A DNA stretch of 34,615 nt, taken from Candidatus Altimarinota bacterium (lineage in GTDB: Bacteria > Patescibacteriota > Gracilibacteria > BD1-5 > UBA2023). Made by a program: the position numbers and the translations under genes. Location of the stretch: positions 1 to 34,615 of the forward strand of contig JANQGT010000030.1 in the NCBI GenBank assembly GCA_028277205.1, written 5' to 3'. Positions 15,383 through 25,054 of this stretch are shown here, in pieces (within the stretch, counting starts at the first letter, position 1; every line of letters begins with the position of its first letter). The notes under the pieces are model-generated. The model was given only the letters and a program-made list of their open reading frames with translations, searched no databases and was not told the origin of the DNA.

Positions 15383-16978
15383 ATGATGTTTCGACTTTTC
15401 CTGCAGATATTCGCTGCCATGCTTGCGTGTCTGTACTGCAGTCTCTGGGCGTATGCGCAGACCCCCGAGACTGCGACGGACGCCACCCCGAGTATTTTGC
15501 TCGATGGAGCCGACATTGCTCCGTTTTTCATCGAAGAGGATACGCTGAGCTGTATCGAGGAAAAATACGAATTCGTCGGTCCCGAATCCGTAAAGGCGCT
15601 CACGAATGTCGACTACGTCATCCGAGCGCGCGGAGACATCACGCTGCAGGATACCGAGTATGTCCGGTATGAGCTGTATAAGGACGGCGAACGCATCGAA
15701 TCGCACGAAGGTATCAAATACGCGCGTTCGTTTGTCGAGCCGGGAGGATCTACCATCACGGCATTTGTGCGGGATCGGGATGGCTGCGAGTATCGATTTG
15801 AAAAATCAATCACAGTCTACGAGCGCATCATCGTCTTTATCGGAGAGGAGCGGGCGGAGCTGCGGCTCGGATTCGAGGACGAGTTTGAAAAACAAGCGAC
15901 GTTTTTTCTGATGTTGCCGTTTTCCGGCGAGCCGGATCCGTCGGTCGCAAATCGCCTGACGCGCCTGGTATCCGAAAATCTCTATCACGTCAAACACGCC
16001 GACAGTCTGGTCATCGCCTCGGCGTATACGAGTGCGGTGATGGAGTCGCTTTGAAAGCTGCAAACCGTCTACAATCTCGATTTTTCCAGTACGGCGCTCT
16101 ACCTGGTGACCACGGAGAGCACCTACGTCGCCAAGCGCGTCTTTTCAAAATATCTGCGTACGCTCGGTATCGAGGCGTTTTGGCTCGTACCGGAGCCCGC
16201 ATTTATAAATCTCCTGCTCGGTCTCTCTACCGCGTCCGGATGATACGTCCCGGAGGATGAGGGAGGCGTGCGCATTTCTTTTGATCGTATTCCGCGTTAT
16301 CAGCTTTTTTCCTACGCTGTGGACTATCTCATATTTCAGGAGTTTCCCGTGACGCTTTTGGCGTGGCTTTTGTCTCTGACGGTCGCTGTTACATTTCTCA
16401 ATTTTGCTCGGCAAATAGTGTGACTGCATACATTCGGATTGTTTTATCCGCTGTTGTTTGCGTTTTCATTTGCATTTCTCAATGTCGCACTGACACTGCT
16501 GCTTTTCATCGTGGCGTTTGTGTGCATCCTCGCGGTCAATGCGTTTTCCGCTCGCGTGTACATCATGCACAATGGTCGCATCGCCCTCGTGCTCATCGCC
16601 TATATCGCTTTGTCGTTTCTGCTCTTGCTCGTGGCGAGTCTGTGGTCGGTTCCCTTTTTGCGGCTCGACATCATGCAAAATGTTTCGAGTATTTTTCCGT
16701 ATCTGGCTATCCTGCTCGTGGCGTATCGGATTTTCGACGATGACTTTCATCCGTTTCGTCTCGATGATATTTTGTATCTCGTTCAGCTGTTTTTGGTCAG
16801 CTTCGCGGTCTTTTTCATCCTGAATTGGAATTGGCTTCAAAATTTTCTGTTGTCGTTTCCGGAGGTGATTTTGCTCATCCTCGGGCTCAATATCGCGATT
16901 GCCCGATTTACGGGACTGCAGCTCTCCGAGTATTTGCGGTTTTTGCCGCTGCTGCGACGAAACGTCGAAGAAGAATAA
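15383..16978 (+). CDS. Membrane protein: signal peptide, Ig/PKD-like ectodomain and C-terminal ~7TM region resembling the 7TM domain usually fused to inactive transglutaminase
   Basis: Single frame through UGAs: ...SAVMESL[G]KLQTVYNLDFSS...STASG[G]YVPED...LNFARQIV[G]LHTFGLFYPLLFAFSFAFLNVALTLLLFIVAF...; neighbouring ATP-grasp gene supports the 7TM_transglut association. Confidence 0.7.
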
Positions 16979-16993
16979 TTTTTTAGCGCGGGT

Positions 16994-19351
16994 ATGATGT
17001 GATATTTCGGCATTCTGGGTATCAATGCGAGAAATCTCCGCTACGTGCAAAAACGCAATCCCCGTGAGGCGATACACCTCGCGGATGATAAGCTCAAGAC
17101 GAAGCGCTTTTTGCAAAAGCACGGCATTCCGGTACCGGACACCTATTTCGTGCTCAGCTCGCGCGAGGAGGTGCAGAGTGCGAATTTCGACACGCTTCCC
17201 GAGACATTCGTGGTAAAGCCGAATCACGGAAGTCGGGGTCGCGGGATCACCGTCCTGACGCGCGATCACGCGAAAAATATCTTTCGATTTTCGGATACCG
17301 AGTACGACGACGACACATTTCGAAAGTATCTGGCGGATATCGTCGACGGGACGTATTCGCTGCATTTCGGGGGAGATCAGGCGTTTTTCGAGGAGCGCAT
17401 CGTCCCGTCGCACGGATTCGAGCGGTTTTGCGCTCACGGTCTCGCCGACATTCGCATCATCGTGGTCAATCTCGTCCCGATTCTCGCCTATATTCGTATG
17501 CCGACGGAGCGCTCCGGATGACGGGCAAATATCCACCAGTGAGGCATCGGTCTGGGGCTCGACATCGGCGATGGAAAGGTCGTGACGCTCTATCGGGATC
17601 GCCGGATATTCACTCGCGCGTTTCCGATGGAGTATGCGTTTTTGCGATGAAAGGGTGTGCCGTTTTGGGATGAGATCCTCCTACAGTCCAGCTGCACTCA
17701 GCAGGCGGTCAATCTCGGCTATCTCGCTGTGGACTGGACGATCACGACGACAGGTCCGAAAATCCTCGAGATCAATGCCCGGGCGGGACTGGAGATACAA
17801 AATGTCACCGGAGTGCCGCTGCGAAAACGAATCGCAAAGATCGAAGACATGCGTATCGCAAATCCTGAAAAATGACACGAAATCGCGAAAGCCCTTTTCG
17901 CGCGAAACGTCTCTCATATCTCCTCGTCGAAAGTGCTCTCGCTCTCCCAGCCGTGAGCGATCCGGGAGACATCGTGAGAGGAGAGAAGCGAATCTATCAT
18001 CGTCGAAGTCAGTCTGGCGCACGCGCACAATCGCATCGCTCCGGCACTCGAAAAGACTATCGAGTCGTTTTCAAAAGACGTGATCGTCGAGACGCAAAAT
18101 TATTCGCTGGCAAATCCCGCTCGCACTGTCGATCCGAGCTTATTGCCAAATGTCTTTGTGCTCGGACGAAAGGCGGTCTCGGAGTACTATATCCGTCCCG
18201 CTTCGCAGAGCATGGGCGTCTTTGTGCCAAAGGAGTGAAGCATCAAGGACGATGAGATCGAGCGTTTGCGAGTACTGGACAAGCGAGTAAACGAACTCTC
18301 GCGCGCTGTCGCCGGACTGCATGCGAGCACTCCCATAAATCTGGACGAGGCGAAAGAACAATTTCAGCGTACTGGAGGACGGGAAAATCCGGTATTTCGC
18401 TATCGAGAGATACCGCCGGCGAGTATCGAGCAGACTCGCAAAGACATAGAGACGACGCTCTCGCAGTACTTTCGGGGTGTATCCGCACTGCAGAGTGATT
18501 TTGCATGATTGTTTCATGAAAAGCTCGAAGAGCTTCATCTTTTTACGCAGTATCTTTTCGCGGTGCGTTTTCAGGATTTTGATCGTATGCGTCGTACGAG
18601 CGAGCGTCTGTATGGAGGATTTGACGCTGCGCTGATCCGTCGCACCGAGGCGGATGTGGAGACGCTGGGCAGGCTCACCCGCGAAGGGCGGGGAGGATCG
18701 ACGCTCTCGCATGACGAGGTCATCGCCTACATTCATAAATATCTGGAGGACTGCGGTCTCTCGGGATCGGTGCGTGTGCGCGTACGCGATCAGATCCCGC
18801 GATTCGTCGTACGTCGAAAATCGGTGCCGGAAATCTCTATCACCCGTCGTCCGCTGTCTCTGACCCATGAGGAGCTTCTCGGCATACTCGCGCACGAGGT
18901 GGACGTGCATATCGTTCGTGCGCTTTCGGGGCGACGCTCGTGATGGCGCATCATCGAGTCCGGGACCGGTTTTTATCTGTCGTGTGAGGAATGACTGGCA
19001 CTGTATCGCAGTCGAGAGGCCTCCGTATCAAAGCGGGAATCTCGTCGTGTCGCGATTCACTATCTGGCGCTCACCCGATGATGAGATGTTGATTTTTGTG
19101 GATTGTTTGAGTATCTGCAGGGCTTTGAAGAATTTGGCGATTTTGACGCGGCGTTTACAAAGGCGGCGCGCATGAAGAGAAATGTTTGCGATACGTCGAT
19201 TGCCCACCCCGGCGCCCTTTTTCTCAAGGACAAGATCTACCACGAGTGATACTCGATGATCGCCGACTGGATAGGGTGATGAGGCGATATCGAGACACTC
19301 ATGAGCGGAAAGATCAAGATTGCCGATCTGCGATACTCTGACGGAGGATAG
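16994..19351 (+). CDS. ATP-grasp (alpha-L-glutamate ligase-like, RimK-related) fused to DUF1704/MATCAP-like HExxH metallopeptidase, 785 aa
   Basis: MM[G]YFGILGINARNLRYVQKRNPREAIHLADDKLKTKRFLQKHGIPVPDTYFVL...FVVKPNHGSRGRGITVL...AVNLGYLAVDWTITTTGPKILEINARAGLEIQ, continuing in the same frame to LAHEVDVHIVRALSG...FYLSCEE[UGA=G]LALYRSREA...LFLKDKIYHE[G]YSMIADWIG[GG]GDIETLMSGKIKIADL*. No TAA/TAG until 19349. Confidence 0.85.
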
Positions 19352-19423
19352 ACTGCTCCCGCATTGACCGGATGCGCATCTTCGCGGTTTTTTGTAAAAA
19401 TGCCGACCGTCAATGCAAATATG

Positions 19424-19452
19424 TTGCAAAAATACAGAAAACCTGATACAAT
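19424..19452 (+). promoter_or_regulatory. Sigma70-type promoter for the pilin-like gene
   Basis: TTGCAA - 17 bp - TACAAT. Confidence 0.65.
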
Positions 19453-19489
19453 GGGCATGCCTTACGCTTATATTCTAAATTTTTTTCTT

Positions 19490-19858
19490 ATGAACAAGCT
19501 TCAGGCGTCGATGTACGGTGCTGCGGCGATCGTACTGGGCATGCAGCAGGCATACGCACAGGGATGATGAATTGATTTCTGAGCGGATCGTGTCGACTCG
19601 GGACTGCAGGGAAGCTCTAACACCGCCGATGTCGCCGTGCAAAATCTCGTGGAAAACTTTATGCTTTTCCTCGGTATCATCGCGGTCATCTACGCGCTCT
19701 ACGGAGGATTCAAAATCCTGACCGCCGGAGGAAATGAAGACGGTGTCAAATCCGGAAAGCAGATCCTCATCCAGGCGGGAATCGGTCTCGTCGTCATTTT
19801 CCTCGCAAACTCCGTCGTGCAGTTTGTCCTGCGAAATCTCTTTACGAGCGGTGTGTAG
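19490..19858 (+). CDS. VirB2/TrbC-like pilin or small two-TM secretion protein
   Basis: MNKLQASMYGAAAIVLGMQQAYAQG[GG]IDF[G]ADRVDSGLQGSSNTADVAVQNLVENFMLFLGIIAVIYALYGGFKILTAGGNEDGVKSGKQILIQAGIGLVVIFLANSVVQFVLRNLF; signal peptide plus GGFKILTAGGNED hairpin. Confidence 0.75.
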
Positions 19859-20061: not shown

Positions 20062-21156
20062 CTAGCCCTTTGTCGTATTTCGTCGTACGAGGAAGAACAG
20101 TGTCCCGGCGATCGCGAGAGCGAGTAGCACGAAGAGTGTCGTCTCCGCTCCGGCATCAGGTAGCTCTGCAGGCAGCTCTGATCCCTCATCCGCATCCCCC
20201 GCCTCAGCCTCCGCCGAGAGCGATGTTTCCATGACTTCATCCGCCGTATCGTCCTCTGTCGGCTGCTCCGGCCCTGCCGCATCCAGCGCTATCTCCTCAT
20301 AGGGAGGCAGGATAGCCGCAGTGGTGAATTCTTGAAATCCTTTGATGCCCTCCTCTATGAGGCGTCCCTCGGTATCGGTCGCACTGATGACAGTGATGGA
20401 GTAGCTGGTCAGAGGATCCAGCTCGGATGCCAGAGTGACGAGCGCGGTATTTGGCATGACGGGATCTTTCGTGGTGGAGTCCAGAGCCAGTGTGGCATTA
20501 TCGCTTGTTTTGATGATGCGGATATCGAGTGATTCTTCGGAGAGCTCCGAGTTGAATTCGATGCGAATCACGCGATCATTGATCGCTCAGGCGCTGACGA
20601 CAGAGAGACTCTCTCCGGATTCGAGCAGTGTCTCGGAGTCGATGGTTGCGAGATTGACAGCGAGCTCGTCCGAAAACATGTCTGACTCGTTTTTCGCCTC
20701 ATCGACGGCGACGAGCGAGAAATAGTAGGTCATTTCCGGATCGAGCCCGGAGATGGTCGTGCTCGTTTCCGGGGTTTCATCGGTTTCATTTTCGTACTGC
20801 GCAAATTCATCCTCGGAGTTTGCCACGGATGTCGTACCGTATTTTACGATATATCCGGCGGCGTTTTCGACGGCATCCCACTCGAGCGTGACCGATCCAT
20901 CTTCGAGGCTGACGAGACGCGGAGCGGAGGAGACTTCGAGCGGATCCATTTCTTGCATATCCGAGCTTGATGCCTCGAGCATAGCCTCGATGGCGGAGTC
21001 AAAGGACTCATCCGTCATGTCGTCGCTGGATTCGGATATGACTTCTTCGGTTCATGTTGCCGTGGTATCTTCGGTATTTTCCTGTGCCAGAGCGCTGGTC
21101 GGCGCGAATGCAGCCAGCAAAGCAAGGCAAAAGAGAAGAACAGTCGATCGTGCCAT
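20062..21156 (-). CDS. Secreted fibronectin type III protein with LPDAG-TM-RR C-terminal anchor
   Basis: MARSTVLLFCLALLAAFAPTSALAQ...VTLEWDAVENAAGYIVKYGTTS...TTISGLDPEMTYYFSLVAVDEAKNES...; C-terminus ELPDAGAETTLFVLLALAIAGTLFFLVRRNTTKG*; three track ORFs joined through TGA. Confidence 0.85.
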
Positions 21157-21267
21157 AGAGAGAAAAATTAGGAAAATGTGTCGATAGGCGTGATGGTACA
21201 CGCTGATCATTATACTACAATCATCGCCATGCCGCAACTCTTTTGCGACGCTCTCGCTGATTATTGC

Positions 21268-21299
21268 TTGTCAAATAATTTGGAATATGCTACTATAAT
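21268..21299 (+). promoter_or_regulatory. Putative promoter upstream of the prepilin-like gene
   Basis: TTGTCA ... TACTATAAT; spacing depends on which -10 hexamer is chosen. Confidence 0.45.
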
Positions 21300-21378
21300 T
21301 TCAGAATACCGCATCAAAATAACAAAGGCATCGCCCCGCCGTTCTCGCATATTCGCGTCCTCTCATCGTCCGTCTATC

Positions 21379-23454
21379 ATGACTCCTGCTCGTTTTCTTG
21401 GACATACTTTCGCTCGATGTTCCTCTGGGGGATTTACGCTCGTCGAGGTATTGGTGGTCATGTCGATCATCGGTCTTATCGCGGTCGCAGGGCTCAATTT
21501 TGATTTTCAAAAAAAACTCGCAAGCGAGGAGCGCGAGGCTTTCGTGGAGAGTGTCGCAGAATTGGTCTCCACCACCCGAATGAATGCCCTCATCGGAAAA
21601 GGCGTGAATGTCGGAGGGGAGATCATCACGCCGGACGAGACGCGCGTACGCATGAGCTCCGGAGGTATTTCCATACTGTACTACTCCTGAGGGACGCATG
21701 TCGCGACCGGTGCGACGTACGATCATCCCTTTCGATGAGACGCTGATTTTTCCGTCGGCGCACTTCGTGTGACCAGACGCGACAACACCGTCGAAGAGTT
21801 TTCCGACGCCGAGTTTGATATCGTCTTTCAGGGAAGCGATATGAGTTTTACGGGGACGAGCATTGATTTTTCGGAGACTGTCAGCGCGGAATTACTCGTA
21901 GGATACAAGGGTGCTTTTCAGGGAGTGACATTTGATAATCGGGCTCTCGCCACCCATATCGAGGACAGCTGTATATGAGGATGCTGTCAGGCTCGATCGG
22001 GCTATTCTCAGGACGGGTACGTCTGGAATCTCCCGGCGCTTTCTATATGAGAGGCGAGTGATACACTGCTCGGTACAAAGAGTATCTCCAACGGGACACA
22101 AACAGCCAGTCGTATCGTCACGTGTCGTCCGGATCTCACATTTTCCGGATCGACGATATCGGAAAATACTCCGGTCTGCAATACCGGCTATGAGTGGAGC
22201 GAGACCTCCGAATCCTGTCGTCCCATGCGCTGCAGCGCGGCGTCGGATCTCATCGTAGACGGGTATCGGTGGAGCGTCCCAGAGCAGCAGCTGGATACTA
22301 CGAGCATGGCTGTCACCGGGACGAAAATCGTCTCTCATGGCACGCGTACGGCTACTCGCACATTTACGTGTACGAGTGCATGAGATCGCGTAGGAAATGC
22401 CATGACAGAAGATCCCGTCGTCTGCGATACGGGATATACGTGGGACGATGATACCAGTCTCTGTGTCGCCGACGATTGCTTTGCGGATGCATACACCGAG
22501 AGCGGATATACATGGAATATTCCTCTCCAGGTCTCCGGAAACGAATCATCGATCATCGTCTCGGAGGCGATCTCTATCACCAATGGTACGCGCACAGCAA
22601 AGCGCCGCTTTACGTGCGTCGCCGGCTCGCGCATCGCCGGTGATATCATGGAAAATCCCGGTACTTGTGACAGTGGCTATGTCTGGAATACCATTACCGA
22701 AACGTGTCTTTCCGGAGCATGCAGCGCGAATACCGCCTACCAATCTCAGGGATATGCGTGGAATGTCTCGTATCAGGATCCGAATACCACTTCTTCTGTT
22801 CTCTCGGCATCGAGGACTATCGAAAACGGGAGCCGAACAGCATCCGCGCGATTTTCCTGCAGTGCCAGATGAGAGCGTACGATTCAGGATTTTATCGAGG
22901 ATCCGGGGACATGCTCCGAAGGATACATATGGAATAGCACTGCCGCCGCCTGCCTCGCGAGTGACTGTTCGCAGAATGTCTCTCTTGTTTCCGGGGGATA
23001 TACATTTTCCGTGCCTGCGACATCATCCGGAGCGACGACTCCCGAGCTGGTCGGGACACAGGCACTCCCAAACGGACAGCGTACGGCTACTCGCTCGTTT
23101 TCGTGTGTTCAGGGTGCATTTTCCGGTAGTGCACTCGTCGAAAATTTGCCCGTCTGCGATGCGGGATATGCGTGGGACGAGGACAGTGGCGCGTGTGTCG
23201 GAGCGGTGTGCGCCATGCAGGAGGACTACTCTGCGGATGGATATACATGGGATATCCCCGAGCTGCAAAACAATACCACCTCCGGCATCATCACCGGGAC
23301 CGAGTCCATCGCCAACGGGAGTCGTACTGCCGTACGGACATTCACATGTATCAATGGTACTCTGTTTGGAAATGCCATGACCGTCTCTCCCGCGGGAGAC
23401 TGCGACAGCGGCTATGAATGGGACTACGCGCTCCAGAGCTGCATATCCGAATAG
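21379..23454 (+). CDS. Type IV prepilin-like protein (class III methylation motif) with large Cys-rich repeat C-terminus, 691 aa
   Basis: CSSGGFTLVEVLVVMSIIGLIAVAGLNFDFQKKL at the N-terminus; one frame through UGA codons to 23454; repeats with the pattern C..Y...GY.W..P...GT..I.NGTRTA.R.FTC..G...G.A...P..CD.GY.W...T..C. Confidence 0.88.
21982..23451 (+). repeat. Six tandem Cys-rich protein-coding repeats, period 243-249 bp (about 81-83 aa)
   Basis: Repeat-initial Cys codons at about 21982, 22231, 22477, 22720, 22966 and 23209. Confidence 0.85.
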
Positions 23455-23570: not shown

Positions 23571-23645
23571 GAGGCTATCGTCTAGTGGTCAGGACAACAG
23601 GTTTTCATCCTGTAAACCGGGGTTCGATTCCCCGTAGCCTTACCA
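23571..23645 (+). tRNA. tRNA-Glu (UUC), CCA encoded
   Basis: GAGGCTA-TC-GTCTAGTGGTCAGGAC-ACAGG-TTTTCAT-CCTGT-AAA-CGGGGTTCGATTCCCCG-TAGCCTT-A-CCA; anticodon TTC. Confidence 0.95.
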
Positions 23646-25054
23646 AGTGGAATTGTACTCGCAGAGAGCCATGCAAATGGTTCTTTTTCGTGTACTTGTA
23701 GCCGTTTTTTCTCATCCACTTCGAGTTTCACCAGTGCTTCTTTGAGGATGACCCCGCGTAGATGGTCATCCCCGGTTTTATAGGCAATGGAGAGGTCTTT
23801 GAGGAGTTTCACCATTTCACGAAATTCCTCCTCGATCGCCGCGTCCATCCCGATGAGACACTGCAGCTCCTCGACGAGTTTTTGCTCCGAGAAGATGAGT
23901 GTTCTCTTTGCCTCGGCGTAGTCCTCGGAGTCGATTGCTCCGTCGAGTGAGAGCGCGAGGAGACGACTCTTTCGCTCGCGTATCGTGGAGAGCTGTTTCT
24001 CCACGCGCTTTCGCTCTTCGATGATGCTGCCGTTTTCACGAAGAATATGCTCACGCACCGATCGCTCCATCTCCGGGACGAGATCGTCCGGGATCCGCCA
24101 CCGCTCCACGACTGACTCGAGCTTTGAAAAGATTGCTTTCTCCGAGATGGAAATGCCGTGCGTATCGTCGTGGTAGTAGTGGTATTTTCCCTTGATTTTT
24201 GACGCTTTGAGAGACTTTCCCGTCTTCGCGGAGACGACGATACCCTTGAGAGCAAACGAGTGCTTTTTATACCCGATGAGCGTGCGTTTCTTTTCGTTTG
24301 CTTTATCCCAGAGATCGCGAGAGACGATACGCTCGAAAATCCCCTCTCCGACCTGTCCCGCGAATCGGACGATGCCGAGGTAAAATTCGTTTTGGACAAT
24401 CTTTGAGACGGTTGATGTCTTCCATTTTGCGCCCGTTCGTGTGCGAATCCCGCGATCATTCAGGTATTCGGCGATCTGGATATAGCTGTATCCCTCCGTA
24501 CGCAGCGCAAATAGTTTCTCAAGGATGGGGCGCTCGTCGTCATGCGGGATCACGCCTCCCTCGTGATTCTTGTATCCGTACGGAGCCTTGTACGGGACTT
24601 TGCCCTCCGCCACCATCGCATTCATCCGGCGCATGACGCGCTGGCGCAGCTTTGCGATTTCCTCTGCACCGAGTGAGAGAAATATCCCCATCGTCAAAAG
24701 CTCGTGCTCGGTGTATACGCAGTTGTGTGTATGGACTTCTCGGATCTTCCCCTGACGAATTGCCCACTTGATCGTACCCTCATCCACCTCATTTCGAGAG
24801 AGGCGATCGATGTCCCACGTGATGAGCGTGTCCGCCTTTCATTCATAGAAATAGCCTATCATCTCCGCGAAGAGGGGACGACCCGGTTTCTTGGCGCTCA
24901 TTCGCTCCTCGAAGATTCTCACGATCTCGCATTCGCGTCCCTGCTGCCTCAGCCCCTCGATATACTCCTCCGCCCACGTGCGCTGGTCGTCGATGCTCGC
25001 CTTTTGGTGGCGGGAGTCGTCCGTGGATTTTCGGAGATAGATGATTGTGGGCAT
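23582..25054 (-). CDS. Large serine recombinase (resolvase/invertase-type site-specific integrase)
   Basis: MPTIIYLRKSTDDSRHQKASIDDQRTWAEEYI...FYE[UGA=G]KADTLITWDIDRLSRNEVDEGTIKWAI...; recombinase and coiled-coil domains; C-terminus TGNRTPVYRMKTCCPDH is encoded antisense to tRNA-Glu. Confidence 0.92.

Follow-up and report, generated by a model that had tools for sequence, protein, structure and literature searches.

A candidate Rlo-type ligase and peptidase module of Patescibacteria with a glutamate-ending membrane protein as its putative target

Locus and genetic code

A 34,615-nucleotide stretch of the draft genome of Candidatus Altimarinota bacterium (contig JANQGT010000030.1; genome of 1.06 Mb in 52 contigs, 93% complete; class Gracilibacteria, phylum Patescibacteria), referred to at its full length as the window, carries two neighbouring genes that encode a seven-transmembrane (7TM) protein of RloB type and a fused protein in which an ATP-grasp ligase is followed by a degenerate retropepsin and a MATCAP-type peptidase. 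Both open reading frames (ORFs) of an initial annotation, made from the sequence alone, were found in place on the same strand, with a gap of 15 nucleotides between them. Read with translation table 11, they are broken by in-frame TGA codons (3 in 15383-16978 and 16 in 16994-19351), and that reading was rejected. Under genetic code 25, where TGA encodes glycine, they yield single proteins of 531 amino acids (P0001) and 785 amino acids (P0002), and five of the 16 TGA codons in the second gene (G176, G183, G294, G667 and G752) fall where standard-code relatives have an invariant glycine. Named sequence relatives come from Gracilibacteria, Absconditabacteria/SR1, Peribacteria and Peregrinibacteria, with one Magasanikbacteria record, and so place the genome in the Gracilibacteria/SR1 kind. 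Coding frames with in-frame TGA occur throughout the window (1-34615), where TGA is glycine (code 25) and table-11 gene calls are broken.

15383..16978, + strand: RloB-type 7TM protein P0001, 531 amino acids, code 25 (PF14402, E 1.3e-11; AlphaFold2 mean predicted local distance difference test score, pLDDT, 82.1)
16994..19351, + strand: fused ligase, pseudo-retropepsin and MATCAP protein P0002, 785 amino acids, code 25 (profiles, alignment, AlphaFold2 model, Foldseek)

The 7TM protein and its ectodomain

Residues 325-523 of P0001 match the 7TM_transglut family PF14402 (44.9 bits, cut-off 25), with a further weak match to RloB, which bears out the kinship first proposed for this gene. The AlphaFold2 model, built from 24 aligned relatives, begins with a helix (signal or anchor) and a disordered stretch (25-55), followed by two folded domains and the membrane region.

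15566..15820, + strand: PKD/immunoglobulin-like beta sandwich of the ectodomain, residues 62-146 (AlphaFold2 model; Foldseek; PKD models in homologues)
15824..16228, + strand: Rossmann-like domain of the ectodomain with alternating strands and helices, residues 148-282 (AlphaFold2 secondary structure)
16349..16909, + strand: 7TM region, residues 323-509 (PF14402; hydropathy; model helices)

Collagenase PKD domains ranked first when the model was compared with the PDB by Foldseek (E 5e-5), and Pfam PKD models (PF18911/PF00801) matched 8 of the 24 homologues; transglutaminase models matched none of the 24, and a transglutaminase ectodomain was therefore rejected. The suggestion of an immunoglobulin/PKD-like rather than transglutaminase ectodomain was thus correct, the more exact description being a PKD domain plus a Rossmann-like one. 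Foldseek gave no convincing named family for the latter (residues 148-282), and a sequence search of the PDB with P0001 returned chance matches only. If the ectodomain lies outside, as predicted, the seven helices that follow should leave the C-terminus of P0001 in the cytosol.

Three domains in the fused protein

The second gene had been described as a RimK-related ligase fused to a DUF1704-type peptidase. Both of these domains are present, and a third, a degenerate retropepsin lying between them, had been overlooked.

17009..17878, + strand: ATP-grasp ligase domain of RimK/RloC type, residues 6-295 (PF14397, TIGR02291, alignment, Foldseek to RimK/LysX)
17879..18268, + strand: degenerate retropepsin (RimB/RloA-like) domain, residues ~296-425 (hhalign 96.2, P 2.3e-9)
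18011..18022, + strand: position of the D-T-G-A motif, here S-L-A-H, residues 340-343 (alignment with intact DTGA relatives)
18278..19333, + strand: MATCAP/TMCP-type metallocarboxypeptidase domain, residues 429-780 (PF08014; phmmer; Foldseek)
18893..18910, + strand: HEVDVH, the HExxxH zinc motif, residues 634-639 (H634, E635 and H639 invariant in the alignment)
18986..18994, + strand: EEG third-ligand motif, residues 665-667, its glycine a TGA codon (E665, E666 and G667 invariant in the alignment)

The ligase domain matches ATPgrasp_ST (PF14397; E 3.6e-52) and TIGR02291 (E 6.6e-57; 192.9 bits, below the equivalog cut-off of 314.2), and the AlphaFold2 model of P0002 (mean pLDDT 82.5) recovers RimK/LysX folds in Foldseek at E about 1e-7 (RimK 5zk6, E 1.1e-7). 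The peptidase matches MATCAP/DUF1704 (PF08014; E 1.1e-15, 57.9 bits, cut-off 27), and human MATCAP (7z5g) was retrieved both by phmmer against PDB sequences (E 5.2e-11) and by Foldseek (E 1.7e-11; TM score 0.67 by target length); P0002 also gives E 3.9e-22 with TIGR02421, which is below that model's curated cut-off. PF14401 had no match in the genome, its controls being equally silent. Ligase residues K75, E133, E134, D152, R154, D247, E259 and N261, together with HExxxH and EEG, are invariant over 18 relatives. With the active-site residues of ligase and MATCAP domain intact, the fused enzyme looks capable of attaching as well as taking off C-terminal glutamates. Neither enzyme domain has a signal peptide, and both are predicted to be cytosolic.

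The stretch between them (residues ~296-425) has no Pfam assignment. When a profile of it from 60-odd relatives was aligned with RimB/RloA retropepsins, hhalign gave a probability of 96.2% (P 2.3e-9), against at most 0.2% for six other windows of the same alignment and at most 0.6% for 30 column-shuffled controls. The catalytic D-T-G-A reads S-L-A-H in P0002 and D-L/P/S-x-x or similar in relatives, and DTG is missing in 32 of the 33 scored members with a fused MATCAP; because of this substitution the domain should be inactive as an aspartic protease. PF05618, the Pfam retropepsin family, had nothing in this genome and a true match in just one (G113, from the same order) of 145 genomes of the class. 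There, a 7TM protein ending in ISE rather than in two glutamates is followed by a stand-alone ligase and a retropepsin with an N-terminal anchor and an intact ARVDTGA, a gene order resembling an RloB-RloC-RloA operon (L045). The N-terminal part of that 7TM protein has a very long Glu/Lys-rich stretch.

Distribution in class and phylum

Neighbourhoods were surveyed in the 145 class genomes and in 380 genomes of the phylum. Within the class, the 7TM protein was found in 111 of 145 genomes and MATCAP and the TIGR02291-type match in 118 each; all 111 genomes with the 7TM protein have the ligase. Among the 117 class genomes with any component, 75 have the 7TM gene directly followed by the ligase-MATCAP fusion, as here, and in 9 the order is reversed; another 25 contain every part but with the 7TM gene unlinked, 6 lack the 7TM gene, and 2 have the 7TM protein and ligase with MATCAP undetected, the contig of G076 stopping inside the gene. 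The ligase was likewise present in all 110 phylum genomes that bear the 7TM gene, and three more have a ligase without it (Fisher P 2.6e-93 over 380 genomes, not corrected for relatedness). Since the pair recurs across class and phylum, it is not a chance arrangement. Conservation of the pair, whose absence from relatives would have counted against the initial annotation, is thereby supported. That annotation had also presented the architecture as new; with 75 class genomes sharing it, it is not special to this bacterium.

Outside the class, the ligase ORF usually has 430-510 amino acids, with an intact retropepsin (DTGA or similar) as its final domain, while MATCAP is absent from its neighbourhood or is a separate gene. 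The 7TM ORFs are often short: 38 of 60 (loci L114-L173) have 214-349 amino acids and are bare or nearly bare 7TM bundles with no room for an ectodomain. The prevalence of these two forms argues that the constant core is a 7TM bundle plus a ligase with its eraser. The RloB/RloC pair is thus widespread in Patescibacteria, its ectodomain exchangeable or dispensable. A literature search yielded nothing joining Gracilibacteria and ATP-grasp and no relevant work on DUF1704; a 2009 amidoligase survey (PMC3268129), which lay outside this search, could mention ligase-DUF1704 neighbourhoods.

A glutamate-ending tail that accompanies MATCAP and a dead retropepsin

P0001 ends in NVEEE (tail peptide LRFLPLLRRNVEEE).

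16967..16975, + strand: C-terminal Glu-Glu-Glu of the 7TM protein, residues 529-531 (codons GAA GAA GAA, then TAA)

Such ends are typical of the class, where the last two residues are EE in 69 of 74 7TM proteins and the last three EEE in 38 of 74; the corresponding figures for background ORFs from the same loci are 7 of 334 (2.1%) and 0 of 334, and chance was rejected on these frequencies. A by-product of a Shine-Dalgarno sequence for the downstream ligase was rejected as well, because EE is kept in 24 of 25 7TM genes that have no ligase directly after them and because the glutamate codons of the tails are mostly GAA (GAA 109 : GAG 29).

The tail covaries with the state of the retropepsin and with MATCAP. 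In a set of 89 loci from the class and the phylum, dead retropepsin motifs go with 33 EE ends and 4 other ends, and intact D[T/S]G motifs with 2 EE ends and 50 others. At loci with a dead retropepsin, MATCAP is fused to the ligase or adjacent to it, and the 7TM tail, cytosolic by prediction, ends in glutamates; where the fetched stretch holds no MATCAP (a few of these genomes carry one elsewhere), 44 of 44 motifs are intact and 0 of 44 proteins end in EE. In a maximum-likelihood phylogeny built on the ligase domain, the combination of dead retropepsin, MATCAP and glutamate tail occupies three separate places. One is the clade of 31 from the class. Another is a clade of five (L123/L124/L134-L136) in which MATCAP is an adjacent gene of its own and the motif reads NTG or NTS. 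The third is the pair L129/L130, whose motif is DTS; L129 has just one glutamate at its tail end.

A proposed writer and eraser pair

We propose, because the ligase's constant partner has a glutamate tail wherever MATCAP has taken over, that the two genes form an Rlo-type (RloB/RloC-related) writer/eraser module of Patescibacteria that has the glutamates at the 7TM protein's C-terminus as its target, and we give this about even odds (roughly 0.5). The 7TM protein would sit in the membrane with its PKD and Rossmann-like ectodomain outside and its tail inside; the cytosolic ATP-grasp domain of P0002 would add an amino acid, most likely glutamate as RimK does, to the terminal glutamates, and the MATCAP domain of the same polypeptide would remove terminal glutamates again. 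The retropepsin would be the ancestral eraser, which lost its catalytic motif, was replaced by MATCAP and may persist as a binding or structural piece. The component activities have precedents: RimK extends the C-terminus of RpsF with glutamate and RimB removes it, C-terminal poly-alpha-glutamylation of proteins being reported for RpsF only (PMC11957791), and MATCAP-family enzymes trim C-terminal residues next to glutamate, TMCP2 being most active on tubulin ending in glutamate (PMC10499314). In Pseudomonas aeruginosa under hypo-osmotic stress, loss of rloB or rloC rescues the loss of RloA proteases (PMC12239564), which argues that writer and 7TM protein act together against the eraser; we assume the same logic here by analogy, and a role in envelope or osmotic stress would follow that analogy too. 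The analysis establishes the domains, the state of their catalytic motifs, the coupling of 7TM protein and ligase and the tail correlation. Topology, substrate, the amino acid added, reversibility and physiological role are inferred from these.

Several observations weigh against this proposal. The link between tail and retropepsin state (Fisher P 1.3e-17) ignores relatedness, and the tree provides about 3 independent contrasts; these independent pairs on average never run in the wrong direction, but with so few a sign test cannot reach significance. Two class loci with MATCAP (L060 in G124 and L062 in G144) have 7TM proteins ending in lysine, L151 combines an intact DTGE with a glutamate tail, and L066 has kept DTG despite a fused MATCAP. 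Members with an intact retropepsin and no glutamate tail still keep ligase and 7TM protein, and their ligase must therefore have a different tail or another substrate altogether. KARS is the C-terminal sequence of the single proteobacterial RloB examined, from Legionella, and the RloA protease of P. aeruginosa is secreted (PMC12239564), which points to a periplasmic product.

In the most probable alternative, the tail is a docking site rather than a substrate: the 7TM protein would recruit the fused enzyme to the membrane through its acidic tail, held in the MATCAP cleft or by the dead retropepsin, and the enzyme would make or modify a different peptide or protein, with the 7TM region perhaps serving to export or sense it. 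The correlation between tail and MATCAP fits docking equally, 7TM protein and ligase stay linked even without a glutamate tail, RimK makes free poly-glutamate as well (PMC11957791), and in P. aeruginosa the genetic data, together with the secretion of RloA, suggest that the product lies beyond the cytosol (PMC12239564). However, RimK-type ligases and MATCAP-type peptidases both act on glutamate-rich protein C-termini, so that the tail as substrate is the simpler reading, and no other conserved candidate substrate was seen beside the genes; we consider docking rather unlikely.

Envelope modification, the function suggested in the initial annotation, appears improbable. The ligase would produce peptides or amides, and the 7TM protein would hand them over to polymers of the envelope, with binding by the PKD domain. 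PKD domains are frequent binders of surface polymers. Also in its favour is the kinship with RloB: vesiculation and stress phenotypes change when RloB is lost (PMC12239564, PMC12096838). Yet the 38 short 7TM ORFs retain their ligase with no space for an ectodomain, which argues that the ectodomain is not the core, neither enzyme domain carries an export signal, and the sole sequence trace of a substrate is the glutamate-rich, predicted cytosolic 7TM C-terminus. Modification of ribosomal protein S6 or another cytosolic protein in the manner of RimK/RimB, with the 7TM neighbourhood secondary, has the RimK-like ligase fold and the RimB-like remnant in P0002 on its side but is very improbable, as the genome's own RpsF ends in RLDSEA with no terminal glutamate, for which it was rejected as the obvious substrate, and in none of the 380 genomes is the 7TM gene present without the ligase, including those in which the two lie far apart.

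Returning to the tail as substrate, a more far-reaching version, which we offer tentatively, is that terminal glutamates on a polytopic membrane protein of Patescibacteria may be cyclically added and removed by a single polypeptide that holds both the writer (ATP-grasp) and the eraser (MATCAP). On this view the eraser was exchanged: with every arrival of a metalloenzyme of tubulin-carboxypeptidase type, the aspartic protease became inactive and the tail gained glutamates. Glutamate ligation to C-termini would then have a natural target besides RpsF, and the tyrosination/detyrosination pair of tubulin would have a prokaryotic counterpart. The phylum comparison points to one concrete target for an Rlo-type ligase, the tail of its 7TM partner, which is testable with peptides.

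Neighbouring genes in the window

Directly downstream of the fused gene on the same strand, 19364-19858 encodes a small protein with two hydrophobic helices that by eye is TrbC/VirB2-type pilin-like. On the - strand, 20062-21171 encodes a protein that appears to be secreted, with beta domains that look repeated and an end (LPDAG, hydrophobic segment, Arg) resembling a sortase sorting signal. Positions 21178-23454 encode a long protein that opens like a type IV prepilin (GFTLVEVLVVMSIIGL) and continues with repeated cysteine-containing units of ~70 residues each. A large serine-recombinase-like ORF (23582-25054), on the strand opposite a tRNA-Glu (23571-23645), overlaps that tRNA with its 3' end, and the region 23571-25054 may mark an integrated element.

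Comparison with known systems

The module shares with RimK/RimB (PMC11957791) an ATP-grasp ligase fold, a retropepsin relative and a putative writer/eraser logic, but its eraser would be a metallocarboxypeptidase, it has a 7TM partner, and the RpsF of this genome lacks a glutamate end. Retropepsin-RimK fusions exist elsewhere, as one annotated frame with 30S ribosomal protein S6--L-glutamate ligase on Aureibacter and Thioclava plasmids (L107, L112); retropepsins of clan AA have a catalytic D-T/S-G, whereas P0002 has SLAH. Fold, HExxxH and EEG motifs are those of the MATCAP/TMCP tubulin carboxypeptidases (7z5g; PMC10499314), and the eukaryotic enzymes likewise oppose an ATP-grasp ligase on glutamate-rich C-termini; here, in contrast, the peptidase is fused to its putative opposing ligase and there is no tubulin. 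A MATCAP-type peptidase, best known from tubulin, is thus found next to a ligase in bacteria, where it may have taken over from an aspartic protease.

The closest counterpart is rloABC of P. aeruginosa, which comprises the retropepsin RloA, RloB with an inactive transglutaminase and 7TM region, and the ATP-grasp protein RloC, 96% of RloB matches being in Proteobacteria (PMC12239564). Both systems place a PF14402 7TM protein beside a TIGR02291-type ligase and include a retropepsin relative. Unlike rloABC, the present locus has a PKD and Rossmann-like ectodomain in place of the transglutaminase, a dead retropepsin, predicted to be cytosolic and fused to the ligase, in place of a secreted active RloA, and in addition a fused MATCAP peptidase and a glutamate-ending 7TM tail. 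Because two defining features, the transglutaminase ectodomain and the secreted active retropepsin, are missing, we do not file the module as RloABC; by analogy it would nevertheless work like RloABC, and it is a variant within the Rlo/Rim kind, not a kind of its own, differing from rloABC in its ectodomain, its eraser and the fusion of its domains.

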